Of a stretch of 64,000 bases of DNA, positions 5,336 to 64,000 are shown in pieces. The notes under the pieces were generated by a model, which ran no database searches, was not told the origin of the DNA, and saw nothing but the letters and a program-made list of their open reading frames with translations. Source of the DNA: Protonemura montana. Taxonomy: Eukaryota; Arthropoda; Insecta; Plecoptera; Nemouridae. Where the stretch lies: the NCBI GenBank assembly GCA_947568835.1, contig OX387610.1:12939001-13003000 (forward strand). Direction: 5' to 3'. Both the position numbers and the translations under genes were made by a program. The first letter of the stretch is position 1, and every line of letters begins with the position of its first letter.

Positions 5336-5607
5336 TTAATGGCGTTGTAGACAAACGCTATGGTTGTAAATGTACACAAAAATATCCATTTTTTTTTTAG
5401 TCAAATTTGAAAGTTGCCAACATTTGCAAAATAAGATACCTCAAAAATTTATTTTAAGTAAATCGTACTGAAATAAACGCAGTTTATAGAAATTTAACGA
5501 CTTTTCGGATTTCAGCTCTTCGTTAGCAGTCATGGCTAGCGATAGAAACACCAATTTTAGGAATTTAGCATTTAGGTACCAATTTAGATTTTTAAAACCA
5601 ACCCATG

Positions 5608-5800
5608 CTGTCGAGAGGTTGATAAGCAAGGCGAGTGAAGTTGCTGTACTAACTTTCATCCCTCCGACCTCTCTCCCGAACAGAACTAGTCATGTATATG
5701 ATGGTCACCCATACAATACCTGACCCAGCGCAGTTTTGCTTAACTTCGGTGATCTCAAGAGAACCAGTGTGACACGCCAAACCGTTCGACAATCCACACA
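5608..5800 (-). mobile_element. 5S rRNA-derived SINE, partial copy
   Basis: Read on the minus strand, it begins with a 5S rRNA-like head: GGTTCTC then TTGAGATCACCGAAGTTAAG, later TATTG(T)ATGGGTGACC. Next comes the family-specific segment with GTTCGGGAGAGAGGT, and it ends after the CTCGACAGCATGG block. The 5S-like part matches the internal control region used by TFIIIA and RNA polymerase III. The 3' tail seen in the copy at 47563 is missing. Only one head unit is present. Confidence 0.75.
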
Positions 5801-7370: not shown

Positions 7371-8679
7371 CGTGGGTTTACATATTTTTGTTTTAAAGTG
7401 AATCTCAAAACGTATATCGATTTCTAACAACGCTACTTTGTCCACGGATTGGTTTAAGTCAATAATTGCCACTGTAACATGCTAGCTGTCAAAATAACAG
7501 GATTGACCTGCAATGTGGAATGTTTCATCCACCTGTGGTCACCTAAGTGTGTTTGAGTTTATGCAAAGATCACTGGTTTTTTCTTCTGAGGGGCGAGGGT
7601 AGGTATATGAGCTGGCAACACAGCGCAAATTCCACAGGTAAAAATTTTGAAAAAGCCGCTTAGAAACTAAAGAAATAATAATAATAGCACGATATTTTTT
7701 TGGGATATATACATCTCCATTTTCGCCATATTTTTTTTATGCTACCTAAATATTCTACAAAATCACTTTATGTAAAACAAAAAACATACCAAATAAACAA
7801 AACAAAAAAACTGATCACAAAGCTCCCGATTAGCCGAAGCCATCCACGCGCCAATCAAGTCGATAATAGTTAAAACAACATCAATCAGAATAGAAATGCT
7901 TGTGATTAAAATTAAATCATCGAATGCATGTTCTGCGTCAAACAAAGGCAGTCTAATTACTCGAAAGCCTGATTAAAGGGAGGAATTAGGGCACAGAGGA
8001 CAATGAATTCAGCAACTCGCACGAGGTCCAAGCCTCGGTTAGTAAATTGAAAATGCACGACTGGAATACATGAATCGTTAGGTTTAACGATATTGAAAAT
8101 CCAGTTTGCGTTATGTGATAATTAATCTCATTATTTTTCGGTAGTTAGTTTCTCTTAATATGAGATCCAAATATCAGGGATTCATCGATACAAATTCAAT
8201 GGCTCAAAATTGTAGGTAATTGTTTTCAATTTGGCTTTCATTAGAAGGTGGTAGTGCCTCAATCTTCTTTTCCTGAGGGATCTGGGGAACAAGATCCTAT
8301 TTTAAAAATCTCTTATAGTGCATATTTTGCGGAAAATGCATTCTAAAAAATATGTATAAAAACAGGATAAAACTAATAAGGTATGATTTCAAAATGGTTG
8401 GCTCGTGTACTTTTATGTGAAGTTTTGGTAGTTTTAAAATTTTGAAGAAAATTGGGATCCACAGATGCTAAGAAAACCCAGGTTTTCTTTTGAAAAACAC
8501 CGGAAAAACGCCTTGAACAGACTCTTTTACAACGCGTGTAACTATAAGACGAAATAGTATTAATGATTTTGAAAAGCGTCAATCTGTTGGCAATAGAATG
8601 ATGAGTCGCCTAGTTATTGTTTCGTCGCGATCGGACAAGTAGTTTGACCGATTATTTGTATCCAAAAAACCTAGATATA
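7371..8679. other. non-coding stretch, nothing recognised
   Basis: AT-rich sequence with no supported gene, repeat or RNA feature. Confidence 0.4.
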
Positions 8680-9996
8680 GACCTGAGTAAGCTGCTACTC
8701 CAATAGACCTAAGTAAGCACTCACTCCAATAGACCTGAGTAAGCTCCCACTCCAATAGACCTGAGTAAGCTCCCACTCCAATAGACCTGAGTAAGCTCCC
8801 ACTCCAATAGACCTGAGTAAGCTCACACTCCAATAGACCTGAGTAAGCTGCTACTCCAATAGACCTGAGTAAGCTCCCACTTCAATAGACCTGAGTAAGC
8901 TCCCACTCCAATAGACCTGAGTAAGCTCCCACTCCAATAGACCTGAGTAAGCTCCCACTCCAATAGACCTGAGTAAGCTCCCACTCCAATATACCTGAGT
9001 AAGCTCCCACTCCAATAGACCTGAGTAAGCTCCCACTGCAATAGACCTGAGTAAGCTTCCACTCCAATAGACCTGAGTAAGCTCCCACTCCAATAGACCT
9101 GAGTAAGCTCCCACTCCAATAGACCTGAGTAAGCTCCCACTGCAATAGACCTGAGTAAGCTTCCACTCCAATAGACCTGAGTAAGCTCCCACTGCAATAG
9201 ACCTGAGTAAGCTCCCACTCCAATAGACCTGAGTAAGCTCCCACTCCAATAGACCTGAGTAAGCTCCCACTGCAATAGACCTGAGTAAGCTGCTACTCCA
9301 ATAGACCTGAGTAAGCTCCCACTGCAATAGACCTGAGTAAGCTCCCACTCCAATAGACCTGAGTAAGCTCCCACTCCAATAGACCTGAGTAAGCTCCCAC
9401 TGCAATAGACCTGAGTAAGCTCCCACTGCAATAGACCTGAGTAAGCTGCTACTCCAATAGACCTGAGTAAGCTCCCACTGCAATAGACCTGAGTAAGCTC
9501 CCACTCCAATAGACCTGAGTAAGCTCCCACTCCAATAGACCTGAGTAAGCTTCCACTCCAATAGACCTGAGTAAGCTCCCACTCCAATAGACCTGAGTAA
9601 GCTGCTACTCCAATTGACCTGAGTAAGCTCCCACTGCAATAGACCTGAGTAAGCTTCCACTCCAATAGACCTGAATAAGCTCCCACTTCAATAGACCTGA
9701 GTAAGCACCCACTCCAATAGACCTGAGTAAGCTCCCATTCCAATAGACCTGAGTAAGCTCCCACTCCAATAGACCTGAGTAAGCTCCCACTCCAATAGAC
9801 CTGAGTAAGCTCCCACTCCAATAGACCTGAGTAAGCTCCCACTCCAATAGACCTGAGTAAGCTTCCACTCCAATAGACCTGAGTAAGCTGCAACTCCAAT
9901 AGACCTGAGTAAGCTCCCACTCCAATAGACCTGAGTAAGCTCCCACTGCAATAGACCTGAGTAAGCTCCCACTCCAATATACCTGAGTAAGCTCCC
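8680..9996. repeat. 26-bp minisatellite, about 50 copies
   Basis: A head-to-tail array with the unit CAATAGACCTGAGTAAGC plus TCCCACTC (26 bp). Variation is concentrated in the last eight bases (TCCCACTC, TGCTACTC, TTCCACTC, TCCCACTG), so variants can be used to trace copy history. The unit length is not a multiple of three and no minus-strand frame of the unit contains a stop, so all three minus frames stay open for hundreds of codons. Those frames repeat every 26 residues and are artefacts, not genes. Confidence 0.95.
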
Positions 9997-20487: not shown

Positions 20488-20695
20488 TTAAGAAAAACTA
20501 TTTGAAATGGGTTTTGAATGCTAAGTAAAGGGCTACTAAATTTCCTTTAGTGATTTAATTTAGTAATATAGTAATTAGTAATTTCCCTAAGGGAAATTTA
20601 GTAGCCCTTTACGTAGCATTCAAACCCCCTTTTAAATAGTTTTTGTTAAAACTAGTGCTAAGGATAAATCAAGTAGACATGGGTCTAAAAACCAT
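20488..20695 (+). mobile_element. A-family element, compact foldback form
   Basis: The left arm (TTAAGAAAAACTATTTGAAA through AGGGCTACTAAATTTCC) is the inverse of the right arm (GGAAATTTAGTAGCCCTTTA through AAATAGTTTTTGTT). Arms are about 60 bp with about 35 bp between. The right arm runs on into the family terminus AAGTAGACATGGGTCTAAAA. The hammerhead-like hairpin block is missing, so the centre has been deleted or replaced. Possible 13-bp flanking duplications match at only 10 of 13 positions. Confidence 0.75.
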
Positions 20696-20935: not shown

Positions 20936-21400
20936 TAAAAGTGCATTTATACCTTCTACAATATGCTGACGAGTACAAATGTCCAGTAGATTCATTTCTA
21001 TACGAGCTTTTTTTTTTCAATTTTCCCATATATCAGCATCTACGGTTCTGGTATATATTACCATGTAGTATAGTTCAAAAGGAGGAAATATGAAAATTTA
21101 GAAAAGTGCATGGTAAACAACATCGCGAATGCACGGCGACGGAGTCTTATTGTGATATGCAAAATGCAAGTAGACAATATAGATGAGTCAGCAAAGGGAT
21201 TCTATATTCTAAAGACAGCGTCATGGCTTACATGCACAATGGTTGCTCTCTTTTGAGTTTCGACCAGTATTTTTTCTCATTTCTTTTGTAGTTTGCCCTT
21301 GTCTTGAAGATAAACCAGCGTAGATGAAGGTGCTTTTATAAACAGGATGTGAAAAATGTGTTATATCGATCTTGCAGACTAATTAATTGAGAAGTGTAAG

Positions 21401-22000
21401 TTGAAACTGTTGCCACGACGACTTCCAATCACATGCAGTGAAATTCAGATGTTTCTGTGAGCTAGAGATCCAACTTATAGTTGAACATTTTGTTGAAACT
21501 GTTGCCATGACGACTTCCAATCACATGCAGTGAAATTCAGATGTTTCTGTGAGCTAGAGATCCAACTTATAGTTGAACATTTTGTTGAAACTGTTGCCAC
21601 GACGACTTCCAATCACATGCAGTGAAATTCAGATGTTTCTGTGAGCTAGAGATCCAACTTATAGTTGAACATTTTGTTGAAACTGTTGCCATGACGACTT
21701 CCAATCACGTGCAGTGAAATTCAGATGTTTCTGTGAGCTAGAGATCCAACTTATAGTTGAACATTTTGTTGAAACTGTTGCCACGACGACTTCCAATCAC
21801 ATGCAGTGAAATTCAGATGTTTCTGTGAGCTAGAGATCCAACTTATAGTTGAACATTTTGTTGAAACTGTTGCCATGACGACTTCCAATCACATGCAGTG
21901 AAATTCAGATGTTTCTGTGAGCTAGAGATCCAACTTATAGTTGAACATTTTGTTGAAACTGTCGCTATGACGACCTCCAATCACATGCAGTAAAATGTGA
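21401..22000 (+). repeat. 92-bp tandem array, seven copies, from C-family interior
   Basis: Units start at 21409, 21501, 21593, 21685, 21777, 21869 and 21961 (period exactly 92). Each unit contains GACTTCCAATCACATGCAGT and TTTCTGTGAGCTAGAGATCC. Copies 1-6 alternate strictly between GCCACGACG and GCCATGACG, so the true amplified unit was probably a 184-bp dimer. Copy 7 is diverged and truncated. The unit is the inside of the C-family element (5192-5335, 11984-12131) without its inverted ends. Confidence 0.9.
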
Positions 22001-39439: not shown

Positions 39440-39935
39440 GATTGATTGATTATTATGGTTTAACGGCGCTCTGTTATGACAACAGGACGTGCGGCACTGG
39501 TCTAAAGGCGTCGGATGAAGAGAAAGAAGATGAACCTAACCAGTCAACAAAGGGGAAGGGGACTATTGGCTTAACGTCCCTTCCGACGGACGGTACAACT
39601 CGAACAACAGGATTCCTCCACAAATCTATGCTGTCGAGAGGTTGACAAGCAAGGCGAGTGAAGTTGCTGCACTAACTTTCATCCCTCCAACCTCTCTCCC
39701 GAACAGAACTGGTCATGTGTATGATGGTCACCCATCCAATACCTGACCCAGCGCAGTGTTGCTTAACTTTCATCCCTCCAACCTCTCTCCCGAACAGAAC
39801 TGGTCATGTGTATGATGGTCACCCATCCAATACCTGACCCAGCGCAGTGTTGCTTAACTTTCATCCCTCCAACCTCTCTCCCGAACAGAACTGGTCGTGT
39901 GCATAATGGTCACCCATTCAATACCTGACCCAGTC
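39440..39935 (-). mobile_element. 5S-derived SINE with three head units, minus orientation
   Basis: The 3' end of the element lies on the left (GATTGATTATTATGGTTTAA), then the core with the hairpin-forming CTTCCGACGG, then the CTCGACAGCATAG block. To the right are three tandem copies of the 5S-derived head module, each with GGTCACCCATCCAATACCTG or a variant (the inverse of the C-box-like TTGGATGGGTGACC). The outermost head is cut off at about 39935. It is one of several loci with multiplied heads. Confidence 0.8.
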
Positions 39936-41966: not shown

Positions 41967-43245
41967 CTCATTGAAGATCCTAAGATCTAGTGAGGTTTGT
42001 AATGATAATTATCTCGTTTCTAAGAAATCTAAATTAGTGTTTTATCTTTCACGGTGCCCTTTTTTTGTGTGAAGATTTCACAGATTCATTTCTGTCTGTT
42101 AATAAATATTTGTAGAGGAAAATTGCAGAAGAAATTCGGTGTTTATTTAGCTCTCTTAGATCTAAAAATCAAGAACGACGAGTTACTTAGATATTAATAT
42201 TTGGCTATTTTCTCAGCTGATATTTTCCAAGGAGTTTTTTAAACAAGGCAAAGCTCGGCTGGCTTTTACGCCAGAGTTTCTATGAATATAGCTCATCTTG
42301 AAGTTCACTGCGAATTTCCTCTCGACAGGAATTTCTTTGCTGCACGATCTCGAGAGAACCTTCAGAGCGTACATCATTTCATATTTATCCAAACACCGAA
42401 TTCAATCAACGAATATTCTCATCATATAAACAGAATTAATAATTCATCCGACATAGTTGGAAAGACGTCAAAGACATTTCCTTATTTTATTGTGCCGCAA
42501 AATTCTACACTGAGAAACTCGAAGAGTACCAGTAATTAGCTACAAACGTACCAAGTTCTTAGAAAACTATCTTCTTCAGTACTTTAATGAGTACCACTAA
42601 TGAACGAACATCACAACTTTAATTACCTACGATAATCACCTTAAGAAAATCACTTTTTTGAATGATGATTTTTCATCGTCAAAGAAAATTCCTGTCGCAA
42701 TCCTATTTCATGTCACCCAAGAAAAGCCATCAATTATTAATCTACTACAATGGACCTCGTCTCTTAAAAGTGCTCTCTCACTTTGCAAAAATTCCTTTTC
42801 AAGACTTCCAATGAATTATTGATAACACTCGACGAGGAAACCTATAAATAATCAATGTACCATTGATTTCACAGAAAAGTCCTTTTTTAGTTTTTGTTTC
42901 TGTTAGCGAAAACGGCAAGTAAGAGTGAACTAATTACTGTTATCCAAGACATTAACAAACTTCAGGTACAGGAAACATTGTACATTATTAACGAACATCT
43001 AGTTTTACTTCCAAATCCCCTAGTAAATGTTCCGTTTCGTTGTAAATACCAACAGCAAACAGTAATTAAAAGCAGACAAAACTAGTCCATGTCATTCAAA
43101 ATGCAAGGCATTTTTTAAAAGAGATAGTTTGAGAGTTCACATTTCCACTGCCAACTAAATGACAAACTGATCCAACCGATTGAAATAATTACCATACATC
43201 AAAAAAACTCCCAAACTAACCAAACCAAACTAAAGCATACAATTA
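41967..43245. other. non-coding stretch before the RT remnant
   Basis: No supported gene. If the retrotransposon at 43246 were longer, its upstream part should lie here, but I cannot recognise reverse transcriptase motifs, so the copy is probably truncated at its 5' side. Confidence 0.4.
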
Positions 43246-43629
43246 ATGGCCAAGGCCAGTAGTGACCCTTGTGCCGATATATTCATTAAAGACTCATGCC
43301 GGCCCCTTTTCAAAAAGTTTCATATTCTACCATTACCATGCGTATATATATTCAACTGCATTATTTGTGTACATAACAACAAACAAACAGCCCCTCCTAA
43401 TAGCAACCCGCATGACACTAGGAAGACAGGAAACCTTCCCCTAGCAAAACACCATCTCTCAATTTTAACTAAAGGCCCTCTTTATGCTGGAGCCAAATTG
43501 TACAATGCTCTCCCGACACAGATTAAAGCTAGCAGTGAGAATACTTTTAATTATAAACTTAAAGAATTTTTATTGTGTTACTGTTTTTACTCTACTGACG
43601 AATATTATGAAAAATGTAAATATTTGTAA
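43246..43629 (+). pseudogene. C-terminal end of a non-LTR retrotransposon reverse transcriptase
   Basis: The frame encodes the extreme C-terminus of a non-LTR retrotransposon polyprotein. Recognisable signatures are DSCRPLFKKFHILPLP followed by a short hydrophobic stretch (residues about 17-45), a His-Asp-Thr-Arg (HDTR) motif near residues 57-60 equivalent to the family's H-x-Y-x-T-R element, and PLYAGAKLYNALPTQIK near residues 78-94, ending in a Leu/Cys-rich helix. These are typical of the region after the thumb domain in jockey, CR1 and related elements. The RT catalytic domain and endonuclease are absent. About 75 bases past the stop lies a (TTA)n tail, so this is the true 3' end of a 5'-truncated insertion. 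The open frame suggests fairly recent insertion. It is not a host gene. Confidence 0.8.
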
Positions 43630-43701: not shown

Positions 43702-43727
43702 ATTATTATTATTATTATTATTATTAA
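43702..43727 (+). repeat. (ATT)n tail of the retrotransposon
   Basis: Follows GGACAATAAAA and closes the element whose coding remnant is at 43246-43629. Short tandem 3' tails instead of poly(A) are usual in CR1/L2/RTE-like elements. Confidence 0.8.
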
Positions 43728-47562: not shown

Positions 47563-47993
47563 CGACCGAACGGTTTGGCGAGTTGCAAACCCCGGTTCTC
47601 GTGAGATCACCTAAGTTAAGCAACAGTACGCTGGGACAGGTATTGGATGGGTGACCGTCATACACATGACCAGTTCTGTTCGGGAGAGAGGTTGGAGGGA
47701 TAAAAGTTAGTACAGCAACTCATTCGCCTTGCTTATCAACCTTTTGACAGCATGGATTTGTGGAGGAATCCTGTTGTTCACGTTGTACCGTCCTTCGGAA
47801 GGAACGTGAAGCCGGTGGTCCCCTTGGTTCTCTTTGACAGAACGCTACGTGCTGCCACCGGGTTTCCCCTCCTTCTAGGCTAGGTTATGCTCATCATCAT
47901 CCACTCATTCACCGACGCCATTAGACCAGCGCCACATGACCAGATGTCAAAACATTTTGTCGTTAAACCCCAATAATCAATCAGCAAAGGCAC
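47563..47993 (+). mobile_element. 5S rRNA-derived SINE, near full-length reference copy
   Basis: It starts near CCGAACGGTTTGGCGAG. The first about 100 bases track 5S rRNA: CCGGTTCTCGTGAGATCACC, AAGTTAAGCAACAGTACGCT and TATTGGATGGGTGACC, which are the A-box and C-box portions of the 5S internal control region. The body follows: GTTCTGTTCGGGAGAGAGG, the ACAGCATGGATTTGTGGAGG block, a core with CGTCCTTCGGAAGGAACG (self-complementary CCTTC-G-GAAGG) and AAGCCGGTGGTCCCC, then a distal domain from CATCATCATCCAC to GTCGTTAAACCCCAATAATC and a short CAATCA tail. About 430 bp, no coding capacity, one head only. A SINE with a 5S-type promoter belongs to the SINE3 class. The GTCCTTCGG...AACGT core resembles a domain shared by many animal SINEs; its exact name is not confirmed. 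Confidence 0.85.
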
Positions 47994-50025: not shown

Positions 50026-50562
50026 GCCATACCTGTACACTCAATGGTTATACACCTAAACAAAACATCCATACATTAACTTCTAAACAGTAGGCACAAA
50101 GGCACAAATTAATATTCAATCATAAAATATTCAATCAATGCACCCTAGTTGCATATCTATCACGTTATCAATATATCCAGGCAACACAAAATGCAACAAT
50201 ATAATAAACGAACAAACCCATACCTCACGAAATTTGCACCGAAGGTCCACATAACCAATTCCCTAGCGATTGGTCTATTACCAGATTGCAACAATATATT
50301 GCACCGGTTGCAACGCACTGCACTATGCAGTAGTCCCATCAGAGACACGTAGGTATTTAGCGACATTTATGCATCAATTACACTGCGGCAGTAGCATGGT
50401 AATCACGGTAGAAAATTTAAAGCCCAATTCATATTATGCAACTCTAATTACAAATAGAATTGCCTTTTGCTAAAGGGTGAACTCATTGCGTGGCCATAAT
50501 TAGGCACAAAACGAAGAGAACAGGAGAGTACACACATCTGTGGGATAAATATAGTTAATCCA
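50026..50562. other. short non-coding interval
   Basis: Nothing recognised. Confidence 0.4.
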
Positions 50563-50745
50563 TGCTGTCGAGAGGTTGTTGAGCAAGTATTGTACTAATT
50601 TCCATTCTACCAACCTCTCTACCAAAGTATGATGGTCACCCATTCAATACACGACCCAGCGCAGTGTTGTTTAACTGATCTGACGAGAACCAATGTTTCC
50701 GACAAGCCAAACCGTTCGGTAACCCATTTCTAGTTTGCATTGTGA
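50563..50745 (-). mobile_element. 5S-derived SINE, partial copy, minus orientation
   Basis: Left end CCATGCTGTCGAGAGGTTG, then a diverged body, then GGTCACCCATTCAATAC and the 5S-like GTTGTTTAACTGATCTGACG, ending at CCAAACCGTTCGG. It covers the same span as the copy at 5608: a single head and no 3' tail. The 3' part may be removed preferentially, or may never have been copied. Confidence 0.75.
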
Positions 50746-56578: not shown

Positions 56579-57360
56579 AAAGATTATTAATGCTTACAAA
56601 CAAAGTAAAATTGATATCTACCTACGCTTTAGTGTCGACAGTGACTTATAGTAATAATAATGAAATGTCTGATGGATGCATGAGTATATTAATTGATTTA
56701 TCTTCTAAAACGACTTCGAATTCTAGTTGTCACATTCGCACCAAATCTCAGCGCAAATATAATAAATATCGCACTTTAAAAGAAAGTCGTTTTGTATAAG
56801 TTTGTCATTCGTTTTGCTTGTTTCTCATATTATTCTCAGCCAACTGGACGTTTGCTTAAAATTAATTTGATCCACGAAATCTATATCTGAAGATATATTA
56901 CATTACTTTTTTAGTCCCAGGACTAAATTGGTCGATTAAAATAGCCGTGGGTATAATTTTTAAATGCGAATCAAATGTATCATTAATTGTCTTAGATGTT
57001 TCTGCAGATGTAAGAGGTTTAAGCGGTATAAGAGGTATGCAGAGATGTGTTACCTAAATGTCCTATAATACTAATTGACAATTGTATATCCATCTGTATC
57101 GCAGTGTAAGACTTTACGCTTTGAAAACAAGCGCCCAACTCGGTCGAAACTTGCACCGGCGCCAGGAAAATCACGTCGCGTTGGTCGCGAAAACGGGCGC
57201 TCCGAGATTTTCCCCGCTTTTCACGTGTTTTCCGTCGCGCGTGAATCATTCGCCAGCCGGGAAAGTCCGTCGCGTTGCGAGACAAAACTAGAAGCGTCGG
57301 TAGAAACTTTTCCAGTGGCGGCGGTCGGCAGAGAATTCTTTTATGTCTGGACGTGAGGCT
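56579..57360. other. non-coding stretch with a CpG-rich segment
   Basis: 57120-57350 is strikingly rich in CG dinucleotides (GTCGCGTTGGTCGCG, CCGTCGCGCGTGAA). It could be a promoter or untranslated first exon, or a repeat with its own base composition. The 93-codon plus frame across it has a low-complexity look. Confidence 0.4.
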
Positions 57361-57710
57361 GAACGTTTTGGCGTGTTGGAAACACTGGTCTTTGTGAGAT
57401 CACCGAAGTTAAGCAACACTGCGCTGAGTCAGGTATTGGATGGGTGACCATCATACACATGACCAGTTCTGTTCGGGAGAGAGGTTGGAGGGATGCAAGT
57501 TAAGCAGGTATTGAGTCAGGTATTGGATGGGTGACCATCATACACATGACCAGTTCTGTTCGGGAGAGAGGTTGGAGGGATGAAAGTTAAGCAACACTGC
57601 GCTGAGTCAGGTATTGGATGGGTGACCACCGAACGGTTTGGCGTATTGAAAACACCGGTCCTCGTGAGATCACCGAAGTTAAACTACACTGAGCTTGGTC
57701 AGGTAATACT
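57361..57710 (+). mobile_element. 5S-derived SINE heads in tandem
   Basis: Three head modules begin with AGTTAAGC at 57407, 57498 and 57584. A second complete element start (CCGAACGGTTTGGCGTATTG) then follows at about 57629 and breaks off at 57710. The first head has CACCGAAGTTAAGCAACACT and TATTGGATGGGTGACCATCA. The body and 3' tail are missing. The nested second start shows either insertion of one copy into another or template switching during copying. Confidence 0.85.
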
Positions 57711-58376
57711 GATAGCACTATTTTCCCCGTTTTTTTTTTTTGTAACATTACAGAATTATGTTAATTGTTATAATTTTCCAACACTTTGAAAACAAATTTC
57801 TTGAAAATACCACAACATTAAAAAAAAAAGTAACATTTTTCTAAATATACAATTTCTGACCGGAATTAACTCACAAAATAAACAACTCGCGGTTTCTGCC
57901 CCCTGTCTTTCAAGTACCAATTTGCCGACTGATGAAACGCATCCACACGAACATTTTAATTATCACAAGTTTGCCGTTCCGTTGCCGCCACTGGTACACT
58001 CTGGCAAACAAATGAATAGGTGCATAGTGCCACCAAGTACCCTCCCCCTCCCCCTTCCCCTCCCCACCCCGTCCCACCCCATGTCACAAGCTCATGGGAG
58101 TTGTTTATGGGACACTGCAAATAAAAAGCAATGTTCCCGAAATAAATCAGTTCGTTCATTGCAACATTAACGTGTTGAATGTGAATAACTGCTCTACTAC
58201 CTTTTTATTTATTGGCAATGGAAAAATCGACTATGTTACTATGTGAGCGGATAGCCGTACGCGTGGTTGTACCTACACAGTGCTGGTGTTTATTTTGTAA
58301 TTCTCCTCAGCGAAAGTGCTTTGTTTATTTTTGACATATGGCTTTTTCCGGTATCTTTGCGATGATAATAAACCGA
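57711..58376. other. non-coding interval
   Basis: Includes a C-rich segment (58043-58080, CCCTCCCC type). Nothing else is recognised. Confidence 0.4.
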
Positions 58377-58990
58377 ATGGTTTTAACTGTTGAAAAGACA
58401 GGTTCACATGAGGTCAGCGAAGTTAAGCAACACTGCGCTGTTTCACGTATTGGATGGGTGACCATCATACACATGACCAGTTCTGTTCGGGAGAGAGGTT
58501 GGAGGGATGAAAGTTAAGCAACACTGCGCTGGGTCAGGTATTGGATGGGTGACCATCATACACATGACCAGTTCTGTTCGGGAGAGAGGTTGGAGGGATG
58601 AAAGTTAAGCAACAATTTGCTGAGTCAGGTATTGGATGGGTGACCATCATACACATGACCAGTTCTGTTCGGGAGAGAGGTTGGAGGGATGAAAGTTAAG
58701 CAACACTGCGCTGAGTCAGGTATTGGATGAGTGACCATCATACACATGACCAGTTCTGTTCGGGTGAGAGGTTGAAGGGATGAAAGTTAAGCAACACGGC
58801 GCTGTTCCGCGTATTGGACGGGTGATCATTGTACACATGACCAGTTCTATTCGGGAGTGAGGCTGGAAAGATAAAAGTCAGTCGTTTTTCCCTTTGGTGG
58901 TCTTCGATAGGAATAGGCAACGTGCCAGCACCAAATTTAATATCCTTTCTTCTAGTCTAGGCTAGATTCATCATCATCCTCATCATCATC
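58377..58990 (+). mobile_element. 5S-derived SINE with five tandem promoter modules
   Basis: It starts with a diverged 5' end (CGAATGGTTTTAACTGTTG). Head modules begin with AGTTAAGC at about 58421, 58512, 58603, 58694 and 58785, spaced 91 bp. Each holds about 45 bp of 5S internal control region (AAGTTAAGCAACACTGCGCT ... TTGGATGGGTGACC) plus about 46 bp of family-specific sequence (GACCAGTTCTGTTCGGGAGA). After the last head the body is shortened and joins the distal domain (CTTCTAGTCTAGGCTAG, CATCATCATCCACTCA). This is the clearest case of promoter-module multiplication in the window. Confidence 0.9.
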
Positions 58991-60320
58991 CACTCAATTA
59001 CTGATAATAATTGACAAAACAATGCGTTTTTTTAATGAAAATCGAAAAAAACAATCAGAGTTAACGTTGGTATAGCTATTCTCACATTTTCAGAACGAAA
59101 TAGGTAATCGGCACCGAATCCTGATCTCCACCTACTCTAGTATACCTATAAACTCAATGGTAGCACGGTCTACTGGAACATTTCCTGCAAACCCGACATC
59201 ACACTTCATCTTATCTAAATTTAATGGATGCACGAATGATTACGACGCAAGTTTAATCAATTCTGATTATCAAAACGTTCCGATTTCAAATCCAATGATG
59301 AATGTTGCAAAGCTCGCTGCAGGATTTGAAAAATAAAACTAGTTTTAGGTCATTTCTCGGTTTATTTGCAACGGTCGGTTTGAATTACGTGACGCAAATC
59401 TGTAAATACTAAATCAGAATGGCATAGATAGAACGTCTCCATCTGGCAAGCGACAGTCTATTTCCGAATATGAAATTAAATATCAAGATTTCAGAGCAAA
59501 TCTACGCGTTTGGGGAAAAAAAGTATCTCCTAAAGTTATGTATTAGGGTAGTAAATTTTCTAAATAATAAACATTTATTAAAGTTAATTTTTTTATAGTG
59601 TTAACTGAATCGAATACTTCAAGTTACGTACAAATCGCGTTATTATAAATACTTTAAATTAGTTAATGCAGATTTTGCGTTGAGAATTATTCGCCAAGAA
59701 GCGTACATATTTACATGCATTTTTAAATTTAATTTCTCGTGCACGAGCAGTGGTTTTTTGTGTCCTGCAGTTGGTATTTAAAAGTATGATAGCAATGAAG
59801 TTGGCTTTCCTGCTACAACAAGTTGGTGCTAATAATGAAACAGCTGTTTTTATAGTTCTGTCAAAACTGAATAACCTTGTGCTTTTAGTTCCTGAATTTG
59901 TTTCTCCTATATCGTGTTACTATAAATTAGTGTGCTTTTAAATATGCCATTAGAAAAAAAAAGATTGTTCAGAAAACAACGCAGAACATGGCAACAGCAT
60001 TCGAGTTGAAATTCGACGTTGAAAATAGAACAGGCCCAGACGCCGGTACAGGTATCACATAATTTAAAGCACATGTAAGCCATACCTACCTCATTACTCA
60101 TTAGTGGTGAAAATTCCTACGAAAATTTGAACTCATTTTACTTAGGACTGTAATTTTTGGTGTTAAGGTACATTTTCCCAGCAAATTATAAGAGCAAGAC
60201 ACTTGAAACTTTTAGCACATGTGTAACAACTTATGTTATTGTGTATTTAAATCAAAAATCTATTTATTTTTATATTATAATTATGTTTAAGAAACATCGT
60301 TCTGATTTAATTAAAAAGAA
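58991..60320. other. non-coding stretch, nothing recognised
   Basis: AT-rich, no gene or repeat supported. Confidence 0.4.
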
Positions 60321-62583
60321 GAGTCACATGTCCAGTCGAACACGTGAAAGTTGCACTGGGACAGATTCACATGCCCAGTCGAACACGTGAAAGTTGCACT
60401 GGGGCAGAGTCACATGCCCAGTCGAACACGTGAAAGTTGCACTGGGGCAGAGTCACATGCCCAGTCGAACACGTGAAAGTTGCACTGGGACAGAGTCACA
60501 TGCCCAGTCCAACATGTGAAAGTTGCACTGGGACAGAGTCACATGCCCAGTCGAACACGTGAAAGTTGTACTGGGGCAGAGTCACATGCCCAGTCAAACA
60601 CGTGAAAGCTGCACTGGGGCAGAGTCACATGCCCAGTCGAACACGTGAAAGTTGCACTGGGACAGAGTCACATGCCCAGTTGAACACATGAAAGTTTCAC
60701 TGGGGCAGAGTCACACGCCCAATCGAACACGTGAAAGTTGCACTGGGACAGAGTCACATGCCCAGTCGAACACGTGAAAGTTTCACTGGGGCAGAGTCAC
60801 ATGCCCAGTTGAACACATGAAAGTTGCACTGGGACAGAGTCACATGCCCAGTTGAACACATAAAAGTTTCACTGGGGCAGAGTCACATGCCCAGTCGAAC
60901 ACGTGAAAGTTGCACTGGGACAGAGTCACATGCCCAGTCGAACACGTGAAAGTTGCACTGGGACAGAGTCACATGCCCAGTCAAGCACGTGAAAGTTGCA
61001 CTGGGACAGAGTCACATGCCCAGTCGAACACGTGAAAGTTGCACTGGGGCAGAGTCACATGCCCAGTCGAACACGTGAAAGTTGCACTGGGACAGAGTCA
61101 CTTGCCCAGTCGAACACGTGAAAGTTGCACTGGGACAGAGTCACATGCCCAGTCGAACACATGAAAGTTGCACTGGGACAGAGTCACATGCCCAGTCGAA
61201 CACGTGAAAGTTGCACTGGGACAGAGTCACATGCCCAGTCGAACACGTGAAAGTTACACTGGGGCAGAGTCACATGCCCAGTCGAACACGTGAAAGTTGC
61301 ACTGGGACAGAGTCACATGCCCAGTCGAACACGTGAAAGTTGCACTGGGGCAGAGTCACATGCCCAGTCGAACACGTGAAAGTTGCACTGGGACAGAGTC
61401 ACATGCCCAGTCGAACACGTGAAAGTTGCACTGGGGCAGAGTCACATGCCCAGTAGAATCCGTGAAAGTTGCACTGGGACAGAGTCACACGCCCAGTCGA
61501 ACACGTGAAAGTTGCACTGGGACAGAGTCACTTGCCCAGTAGAATCCGTGAAAGTTGCACTGGGGCAGAGTCACATGCCCAGTCGAACACGTGAAAGTTG
61601 CACTGGGACAGAGTCACATGCCCAGTCGAACACGTGAAAGTTGCACTGGGGCAGAGTCACATGCCCAGTCGAACACGTGAAAGTTGCACTGGGACAGAGT
61701 CACATGCCCAGTCGAACACGTGAAATTTGCACTGGGGCAGAGTCACATGCCCAGTAGAATCCGTGAAAGTTGCACTGGGACAGAGTCACACGCCCAGTCG
61801 AACACGTGAAAGTTGCACTGGGACAGAGTCACTTGCCCAGTCAAACACGTGAAAGTTGCACTGGGACAGAGTCACATGCCCAGTCGAACACGTGAAAGTT
61901 GCTCTGGGACAGAGTCACATGCCCAGTGGAACACGTGAAAGTTGCACTGGGACAGAGTCACTTGCCCAGTCGAACACGTGAAAGTTGCACTGGGACAGAG
62001 TCACATGCCCAGTCGAACACGTGAAAGTTGCACTGGGACAGAGTCACATGCCCAGTCGAACACGTGAAAGTTGCACTGGGACAGAGTCACATGCCCAGTC
62101 GAACACGTGAAAGTTACACTGGGGCAGAGTCACATGCCCAGTCGAACACGTGAAAGTTGCACTGGGACAGAGTCACATGCCCAGTCGAACACGTGAAAGT
62201 TGCACTGGGGCAGAGTCATATCCCCAGTCAAACACGTGAAAGTTGCACTGGGTTAGAGTCACATGCCCAGTCGAACACGTGAAAGTTGCACTGGGACAGA
62301 GTCACATGCCCAGTCGAACACGTGAAAGTTGCACTGGGGCAGAGTCACATGCCCAGTAGAATCCGTGAAAGTTGTACTGGGACAGAGTCACATGCCCAGT
62401 CGAACACGTGAAAGTTGCACTGGGGCAGAGTCACATGCCCAGTCGAACTCGTGAAAGTTGCACTGGGACAGAGTCACATGCCCAGTAGAACACATGAAAG
62501 TTGCACTGGGACAGAGTCACATGCCCAGTCGAACACGTGAAAGTTGCACTGGGGCAGAGTCACATGCCCAGTCAAACACGTCA
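60321..62583. repeat. 43-bp minisatellite, about 52 copies
   Basis: Unit: CACATGCCCAGTCGAACACG followed by TGAAAGTTGCACTGGGACAG and AGT (43 bp). Each unit contains an inverted repeat (TGCCCAGT ... ACTGGG(G)CA) and, in most copies, the palindrome CACGTG (E-box core). Two main variants end in GGGACAG or GGGGCAG. The rare variant GTAGAATCCGTG recurs at 61452 and 61753, exactly 301 bp (7 units) apart, and TTACACTGGGGC recurs at 61254 and 62114, exactly 860 bp (20 units) apart, showing block duplications. There are no unique spacers, so it is not a CRISPR array. Confidence 0.95.
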
Positions 62584-63719: not shown

Positions 63720-64000
63720 ATGGACTGGTCATGAGTATGATGGTCACCCATCCAATACCTGACCCAGCACAGTGTTGAGTAACTTTCATCACTTCAACCT
63801 CTCTCCCGAACAGAACAGGTCATGTGTATGATGGTCACCCATCAAATACCTGACCCAGCACAGTTTTGCTTAACTTTCATCCCTCCAACCTCTCTCCCGA
63901 ACAAAACTGGTCATGTATATGATGGTCACCCATCAAATACTTGACTCAGCGCAGTGTTGCTTAACTTTCATCCCTCCAACCTCTCTCCCGAACAGAACTG
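63720..64000 (-). mobile_element. 5S-derived SINE heads in tandem, cut by window end
   Basis: Three head modules in minus orientation, each with GGTCACCCATCCAATACCTG or a variant and CTCTCTCCCGAACAGAAC. The array continues beyond base 64000, so the number of modules is unknown. The 3' part of the element is missing on the left, where the array begins abruptly after GAATATGGACTGGTCATG. Confidence 0.85.

Follow-up and report, generated by a model that had tools for sequence, protein, structure and literature searches.

Insect SINE3 elements, among them HaSE3, PxSE4 and PxSE5, have been described as having a 5S-derived 5' part with an A box, an IE and a C box, followed by an unrelated body and a short-repeat tail, and as being flanked by target-site duplications (PMC3272025; PMC8010984). 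In these respects they are like the SINE described below; however, the available sections of the two papers describe them without tandem promoter modules, and the words tandem and multimer are absent from the available text of one of them (PMC8010984), whereas here the module occurs from 1 to ~20 times. Type 1 promoters are thought to lean on signals lying upstream of them, which are not carried along into a new copy (available part of PMC3272025, following Kapitonov and Jurka), and it is this old puzzle, how a 5S-type promoter survives retrotransposition, that the present element touches.

Conversion of the promoter-bearing part of a SINE into a tandem repeat, as seen here, has been described for Hy/Pol III of Hydromantes and Satellite 1 of Xenopus, which in the passages available are tRNA-derived and are satellites (PMC9659126), whereas here the promoter is 5S-derived and most sampled arrays lie in a SINE with a body. 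The mouse B1-derived VNTR of the same passages (PMC9659126) has likewise grown from a SINE, but its short GGCAGA unit is not a whole promoter. Another example of a 5S-derived promoter on a retroelement is provided by Cassandra and Ajax, TRIM elements with 5S-like LTRs (PMC10886601, in excerpt), and long tandem arrays of Cassandra have been reported, to judge by a title. Membership of the present family among these TRIM elements was considered and rejected: Cassandra and Ajax have LTRs, as far as the excerpt of PMC10886601 goes, whereas the duplication-flanked elements found here have a 5S head at one end and a microsatellite tail at the other. Among the titles, abstract openings and passages of the open-licence literature that were searched, a SINE with tandem promoter modules was not found.

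In Protonemura montana, a tandem-module SINE is present that is real, genome-wide and unusual. It is described here from a window, by which we mean the whole stretch of 64,000 nucleotides that was analysed (C13:12,939,001-13,003,000), and from the 258-Mb assembly of 34 contigs to which the window belongs. The reading that we hold to be probable is that the Pol III promoter segment of a SINE3-type SINE was turned into a VNTR by microhomology and that the family has spread partly as retrotransposed arrays. As judged from sequence, the promoter segment of this parasite would then be, in many copies across the genome, a counted tandem block of variable length that is movable as a whole array.

Structure and 5S origin of the five-module element

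The stretch from 58,372 to 59,055 of the window is one SINE, in which, by alignment, five 91-bp modules stand between a 5S-derived 5' half and a body that has an internal deletion and a tail (Table 1). Tandem Repeats Finder reports a period of 91 with 5.0 copies and 91% matches at 58420-58878, in addition to the module starts placed by BLAST. A preliminary description of this DNA had proposed five heads at 91-bp spacing before a single shortened body that ended at 58990. The five-fold reiteration at 58,372-58,874 is confirmed and the body is indeed shortened, but the 5S 5' half is present only once, and the body reaches ~59055, ~65 bp beyond the end first given.

Table 1. Coordinates, strand and basis of the features discussed in the text (window positions unless a contig or locus is named)
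Feature	Position	Strand	Basis
Single 5S-derived 5' half (5S ~1-48) of five-module element	58372..58419	+
Module 1: A box, IE, C box, degenerate 5S 3' end, ~19 bp of body start	58420..58510	+	BLAST
Module 2 of five-module element	58511..58601	+	BLAST
Module 3 of five-module element	58602..58692	+	BLAST
Module 4 of five-module element	58693..58783	+	BLAST
Module 5, most diverged of five-module element; T at module position 22 common with module 1	58784..58874	+	BLAST
Shortened (internally deleted) SINE body and tail of five-module element	58875..59055	+
5S 5' half of second array element	57358..57405	+
Three modules: one full, one with 17-nt deletion, one cut after C box	57406..57628	+
Second 5S 5' half joined to C box of previous module (92-bp type junction), then partial A box region	57628..57705	+
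Body and tail of three-module element, two matched pieces	39443..39678	-
Three modules, first lacking 18 nt	39679..39933	-
Array leaving window, to ~64,021 (L077)	63724..64000	-
Complete single-module element	47563..47983	+
Single-module element, 3' truncated	5597..5788	-
Single-module element, degenerate	50557..50720	-
15-bp minisatellite loci	L066, L073, C1:31610290-31611189, C1:31859834-31860103

The 5S origin that had been claimed for the head was borne out both by alignment to the genome's own 5S genes, which served as the reference (47 scored matches, all above the family cut-off), and by Rfam. Head and module together align to the own 5S gene over 76 nt at 84% (E 6e-22), and the first 44 nt of the module alone match 5S positions 49-92 ungapped at 36 of 44 sites (82%, E 3.5e-10), where the chance level, taken from one shuffle of the window, was a best of 25/44 on the + strand. 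For the second half of the module, BLAST against the own 5S gene gives no match. The Rfam 5S model is above its gathering score at three window loci, with the whole 120-nt model aligned to window copies, and in the copy at 47565 this alignment pairs the 5' CCGAACGG with CTGTTCGG. Because CTGTTCGG lies inside the module, the module seems to hold the diverged 3' part of 5S, followed by ~19 bp of body. Helix I still pairs in this copy in the Rfam alignment, both of its strands differing from the 5S gene sequence. The repeated unit runs from 5S position 49 to the 3' end and on through ~19 bp of body, and leaves out the 5' half of 5S; what had been described as reiteration of the whole head applies to this part of it. 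The element is a 5S rRNA-derived SINE of the SINE3 type, ~420 bp long when it has a single module, and sampled elements bear AAT/AATC-type tails, the tail pattern having 7,548 matches.

The 5S genes themselves occur on both strands at C11:70-105743, where a large part of the cluster has a period of ~9.5 kb. At L005, 0.2 kb separates one 5S gene from a histone 3' stem-loop, and 5S and histone genes seem to be linked in this cluster.

Abundance and array length across the genome

Module-module junctions, head entries and body exits were counted on both strands with patterns allowing up to 3 mismatches, for each of which the reversed-pattern control gave 0 matches. Junctions number 26,906 (13,476 + 13,430), by a pattern that includes the breakpoint itself and so cannot show other breakpoints to be rare; head entries number 11,063 (5,617 + 5,446), a count that also takes in the heads of 92-bp arrays; and body exits number 9,438 (4,753 + 4,685). 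If the three patterns are equally detectable, this corresponds to ~3.4 to 3.9 modules per element, ~38,000 modules and ~1.3% of the genome, with junction matches exceeding entry matches 2.4 to 1. The number of modules per element has a skewed spread. Sixteen elements from the exact-match entry list on C1 (0.2-21.5 Mb), hand-picked and non-random, comprise 14 with a single module, one with two and one with eight, and arrays sampled via the junction list reach 21 full modules. Most chains of at least two modules end in a body (27 of the 34 distinct ones sampled, or 28 when the chain at 58420 is added), and chains with a body hold from 1 to 14 modules. The sample behind these array lengths is small and non-random, and this has to be counted against our preferred reading.

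Probable birth of the repeat at short direct repeats

The breakpoint of the repeat lies at AAGTTA, a 6-nt repeat that is present at the A box (CACCG-AAGTTA-AGCAAC) and again 91 bp on, at the body start (GATGA-AAGTTA-GTACAG), and the module junction reads GATGA-AAGTTA-AGCAAC. The six bases common to both sides of the breakpoint suggest either slippage or a template jump in reverse transcription, and the data favour neither over the other. As the junction suggests, a jump or slip between the two AAGTTA copies would add one module.

The same SINE has given rise to other tandem forms. In the 92-bp repeat, which comprises 5S 1-93, the C box is joined to the head start (2,541 junction matches; examples are L069 and window position 57,628). 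A 15-bp minisatellite with the unit ATCATACACATGACC, which has 6,690 overlapping matches genome-wide, seems to have developed within the module from a direct repeat of GACCA. In all, a single SINE is the source of tandem repeats with units of 91, 92 and 15 bp, formed at short direct repeats.

Spread of arrays and change of length in place

Target-site duplications were sought by scoring words common to the two flanks of an element, for 47 elements with both module and body, among which are three copies of one insertion. A score of at least 10 was reached by 12/47 elements as opposed to 6/2142 mispaired flanks, and a score of at least 8 by 15/47 as opposed to 95/2142. Scores of at least 10 occur in 6/20 single-module and 6/27 multi-module elements, so that duplications are about equally frequent in both classes. 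At a score of at least 13, which is found in 0/2142 mispaired flanks, are L063(-) with four modules, L067 and L075 with seven each, L076(-) with two and L076(+) with one. Several observations count against our preferred reading: 35 of the 47 elements, single or multi, score below 10, and in the five-module element of the window the flanks contain no clear target-site duplication and the last module is diverged.

The clearest case is L067: it starts at ~module position 52, seven whole modules, a body and a tail come after, and the perfect 14-bp duplication AAACACTGGACTCC flanks it on both sides. Since this element is cut inside a module and yet seven whole modules follow, its template RNA held several modules; it is the only clean 5'-truncated array with duplications found, which also counts against the preferred reading. 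For the four-module element L063(-), related segments without the insertion exist, and its joined flanks align across the site to L062 at 83%, the alignment to L061 and L072 being weaker (74-75%). Under the preferred reading, target-primed reverse transcription would copy multi-module transcripts, probably those of Pol III, into new sites, and arrays would move as arrays. This movement is shown for one element, L067, and is supported for the SINE family.

Similar behaviour is known from the SVA elements of apes, non-autonomous retroposons with an internal VNTR whose variable copy number is inherited through retrotransposition. In the family described here the tandem number likewise varies among insertions (n=1-14 with a body) and the array of L067 was copied through RNA; the SVA VNTR, however, is not a Pol III promoter, and the likeness is one of behaviour, with no sequence relation claimed.

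A different origin of the arrays, which we regard as unlikely, would be the local birth of satellites, where single-module SINEs insert and arrays then grow in situ, by slippage or unequal exchange at AAGTTA, towards satellites. If growth were purely local, the modules of one array would be much more alike, whereas in 19 arrays of at least 4 modules (two duplicate copies excluded) the mean module difference is 0.049 within arrays, 0.047 for adjacent modules and 0.056 between arrays, and the G/A variant at module position 22 is mixed inside arrays and common across them. The similarity of within- and between-array differences points the same way as L067, to arrays copied as arrays, although rapid local formation of arrays from nearly identical modules would likewise make the two distances similar; L075, with a module difference of 0.006, is the one array that looks locally grown. 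L067 itself, with its seven whole modules and 14-bp duplication, is impossible to derive in this way from a truncated single module. Change in place does occur: between L061, with 10 modules, and L072, with 9, the 5' flanks are 99.5% alike over 1,300 bp and the 3' flanks 95% alike over ~990 bp, and the variant patterns differ by one missing module. L062 is an older copy of this insertion (flanks 93% and 95% alike), with 10 modules and another variant pattern. The presence of 10, 10 and 9 modules at one shared insertion indicates that length also changes after insertion, and in the preferred reading array length would then drift at the locus by gain and loss of modules, as is shown for this one insertion. 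A second shared insertion, L061(-)/L063(+) with 13 and 5 modules, was rejected, its 5' flank being tandem-repeat and its 3' match only 117 bp. Local growth towards satellites is further favoured by L064, with 21 full modules and one partial module and no body, by the 15-bp and 92-bp arrays that arise from other parts of the same SINE, and by the clustering of exact-match arrays in parts of C1, where entries are spread. On C1 up to 29.42 Mb, exact-match junction loci in 0-2, 2-19 and 19-29.42 Mb number 16, 1 and 17, and exact-match entry loci 20, 31 and 43 (loci collapsed by hand), so that 2-19 Mb holds 1/34 junction loci versus 31/94 entry loci (Fisher p 3e-4). Among the matches listed, which on C5 extend to 18.5 Mb, exact 92-bp junctions occupy 2.3-2.8 and 21.0-24.5 Mb of C4 (25.9 Mb long) and 0.5-2.7, 13.1-14.5 and 17.6-18.5 Mb of C5. 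In the parts viewed, the middle of C1 and of C4 is avoided by young arrays, a distribution that fits locus-dependent expansion or retention. The preliminary description had offered both a tandemly promoted SINE and a satellite being born from a SINE head; the former is closer, because the arrays are located within SINEs and travel as components of them, whereas the birth of satellites looks like a side branch (L064; the 15-bp arrays L066 and L073; the 92-bp arrays L069).

The arrays might also have been carried around by one segmental duplication or a larger mobile unit. Three inverted array pairs on C1 (L061, L062, L063) do share flanking or middle sequence, and L072 has the flank of L061, but elsewhere in the sample both flanks and target-site duplications are particular to the locus, L097-L099 are unlike outside the SINE, and the 26,906 junction matches are genome-wide, all of which makes this origin very improbable. 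One segmental duplication, named beforehand as the outcome that would speak against independent loci, was rejected as a general account in view of the target-site duplications and unlike flanks, and it holds for the C1 segment of L061-L063. The inverted C1 array pairs, ~2-3 kb apart, had also been considered as a foldback or TIR element, which was rejected because L061-L063 share a larger two-SINE segment.

A strand pattern was noticed further along C1. Among the matches listed, 52/52 exact SINE exits in C1 30.03-31.84 Mb and 36/36 exact tail matches in C1 29.97-32.68 Mb are on the + strand, exit and tail strands being mixed in the rest of C1 and in C2; the sampled loci L097-L099 have unlike flanks, as given above. 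At L099 (C1:30845000-30848900), two SINEs lie in introns of a + strand gene whose exons, by motif, presumably encode a DNA polymerase delta catalytic subunit.

Promoter capacity of inner modules

Compared with the 5S gene at the same spacing and ungapped, the module retains 13/15 positions of the A box, 4/6 of the IE and 13/18 of the C box, within the limits that we take these boxes to have. The consensus module has no TTTT (T4 stop), which is carried by 11/216 modules. The earlier proposal that each module is a complete potential TFIIIA/TFIIIC unit is right by sequence, the three boxes being kept in 5S register. With the boxes in this register and no T4 in the consensus, inner modules could start transcription, and real initiation at some of them is possible, though we lean against it. 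Most inner modules are taken to be passengers.

It could be supposed that additional modules persist for their effect on the Pol III output of the SINE, which every added TFIIIA/TFIIIC unit would raise, the module before it serving as a fixed upstream flank. That the module consensus keeps all three boxes in 5S register agrees with such a function, as does the excess of junction over entry matches, but the A box of inner modules is no more constrained than the non-5S part, each being 2.2% off consensus, and we consider selection for a tandem promoter rather improbable. Extra A-box conservation in single elements (1.1%) was dismissed as selection bias, most of them having been picked by exact match there. 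That this is the first SINE family with a VNTR Pol III promoter, in which arrays retrotranspose as arrays and inner modules initiate, each giving the next a fixed upstream flank, may be put forward tentatively; if true, multimerisation would free a 5S-derived SINE from dependence on its insertion site. The ~27,000 junctions and array lengths from 1 to >10 provide a natural dose series, in which one can ask whether promoter number affects Pol III output, retrotransposition success, or neither.

Other module loci and repeats in the window

Six further loci in the window had been listed with module numbers, and these were largely upheld. The three modules given for 57361 are present, but only one is full and the locus (57358-57705) is a composite, in which the three modules are followed by a fresh 5S 5' half. 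At 39440 there are three modules, the first without 18 nt, but 39440 is the 3' end of the element. The estimate of at least three at 63720 agrees with two full and two partial modules at 63724 (-), beyond which L077 has one further 38-nt partial match, to ~64,089, and the single modules reported for 47563, 5608 and 50563 were each found, at 47563, ~5656 and ~50627.

Other tandem arrays in the window are located at 60320-62581 (43-bp x 53), 8677-9996 (26-bp x 51) and 21400-21996 (92-bp x 6.5), in none of which does the SINE module have a BLAST match. A MIR9563 match at 20516-20621 scored 49, compared with a gathering score of 90, and was set aside as a palindromic repeat. An ORF at 43234-43629, which we take to resemble the C-terminal end of a non-LTR reverse transcriptase, is followed by an ATT run at 43702-43726.
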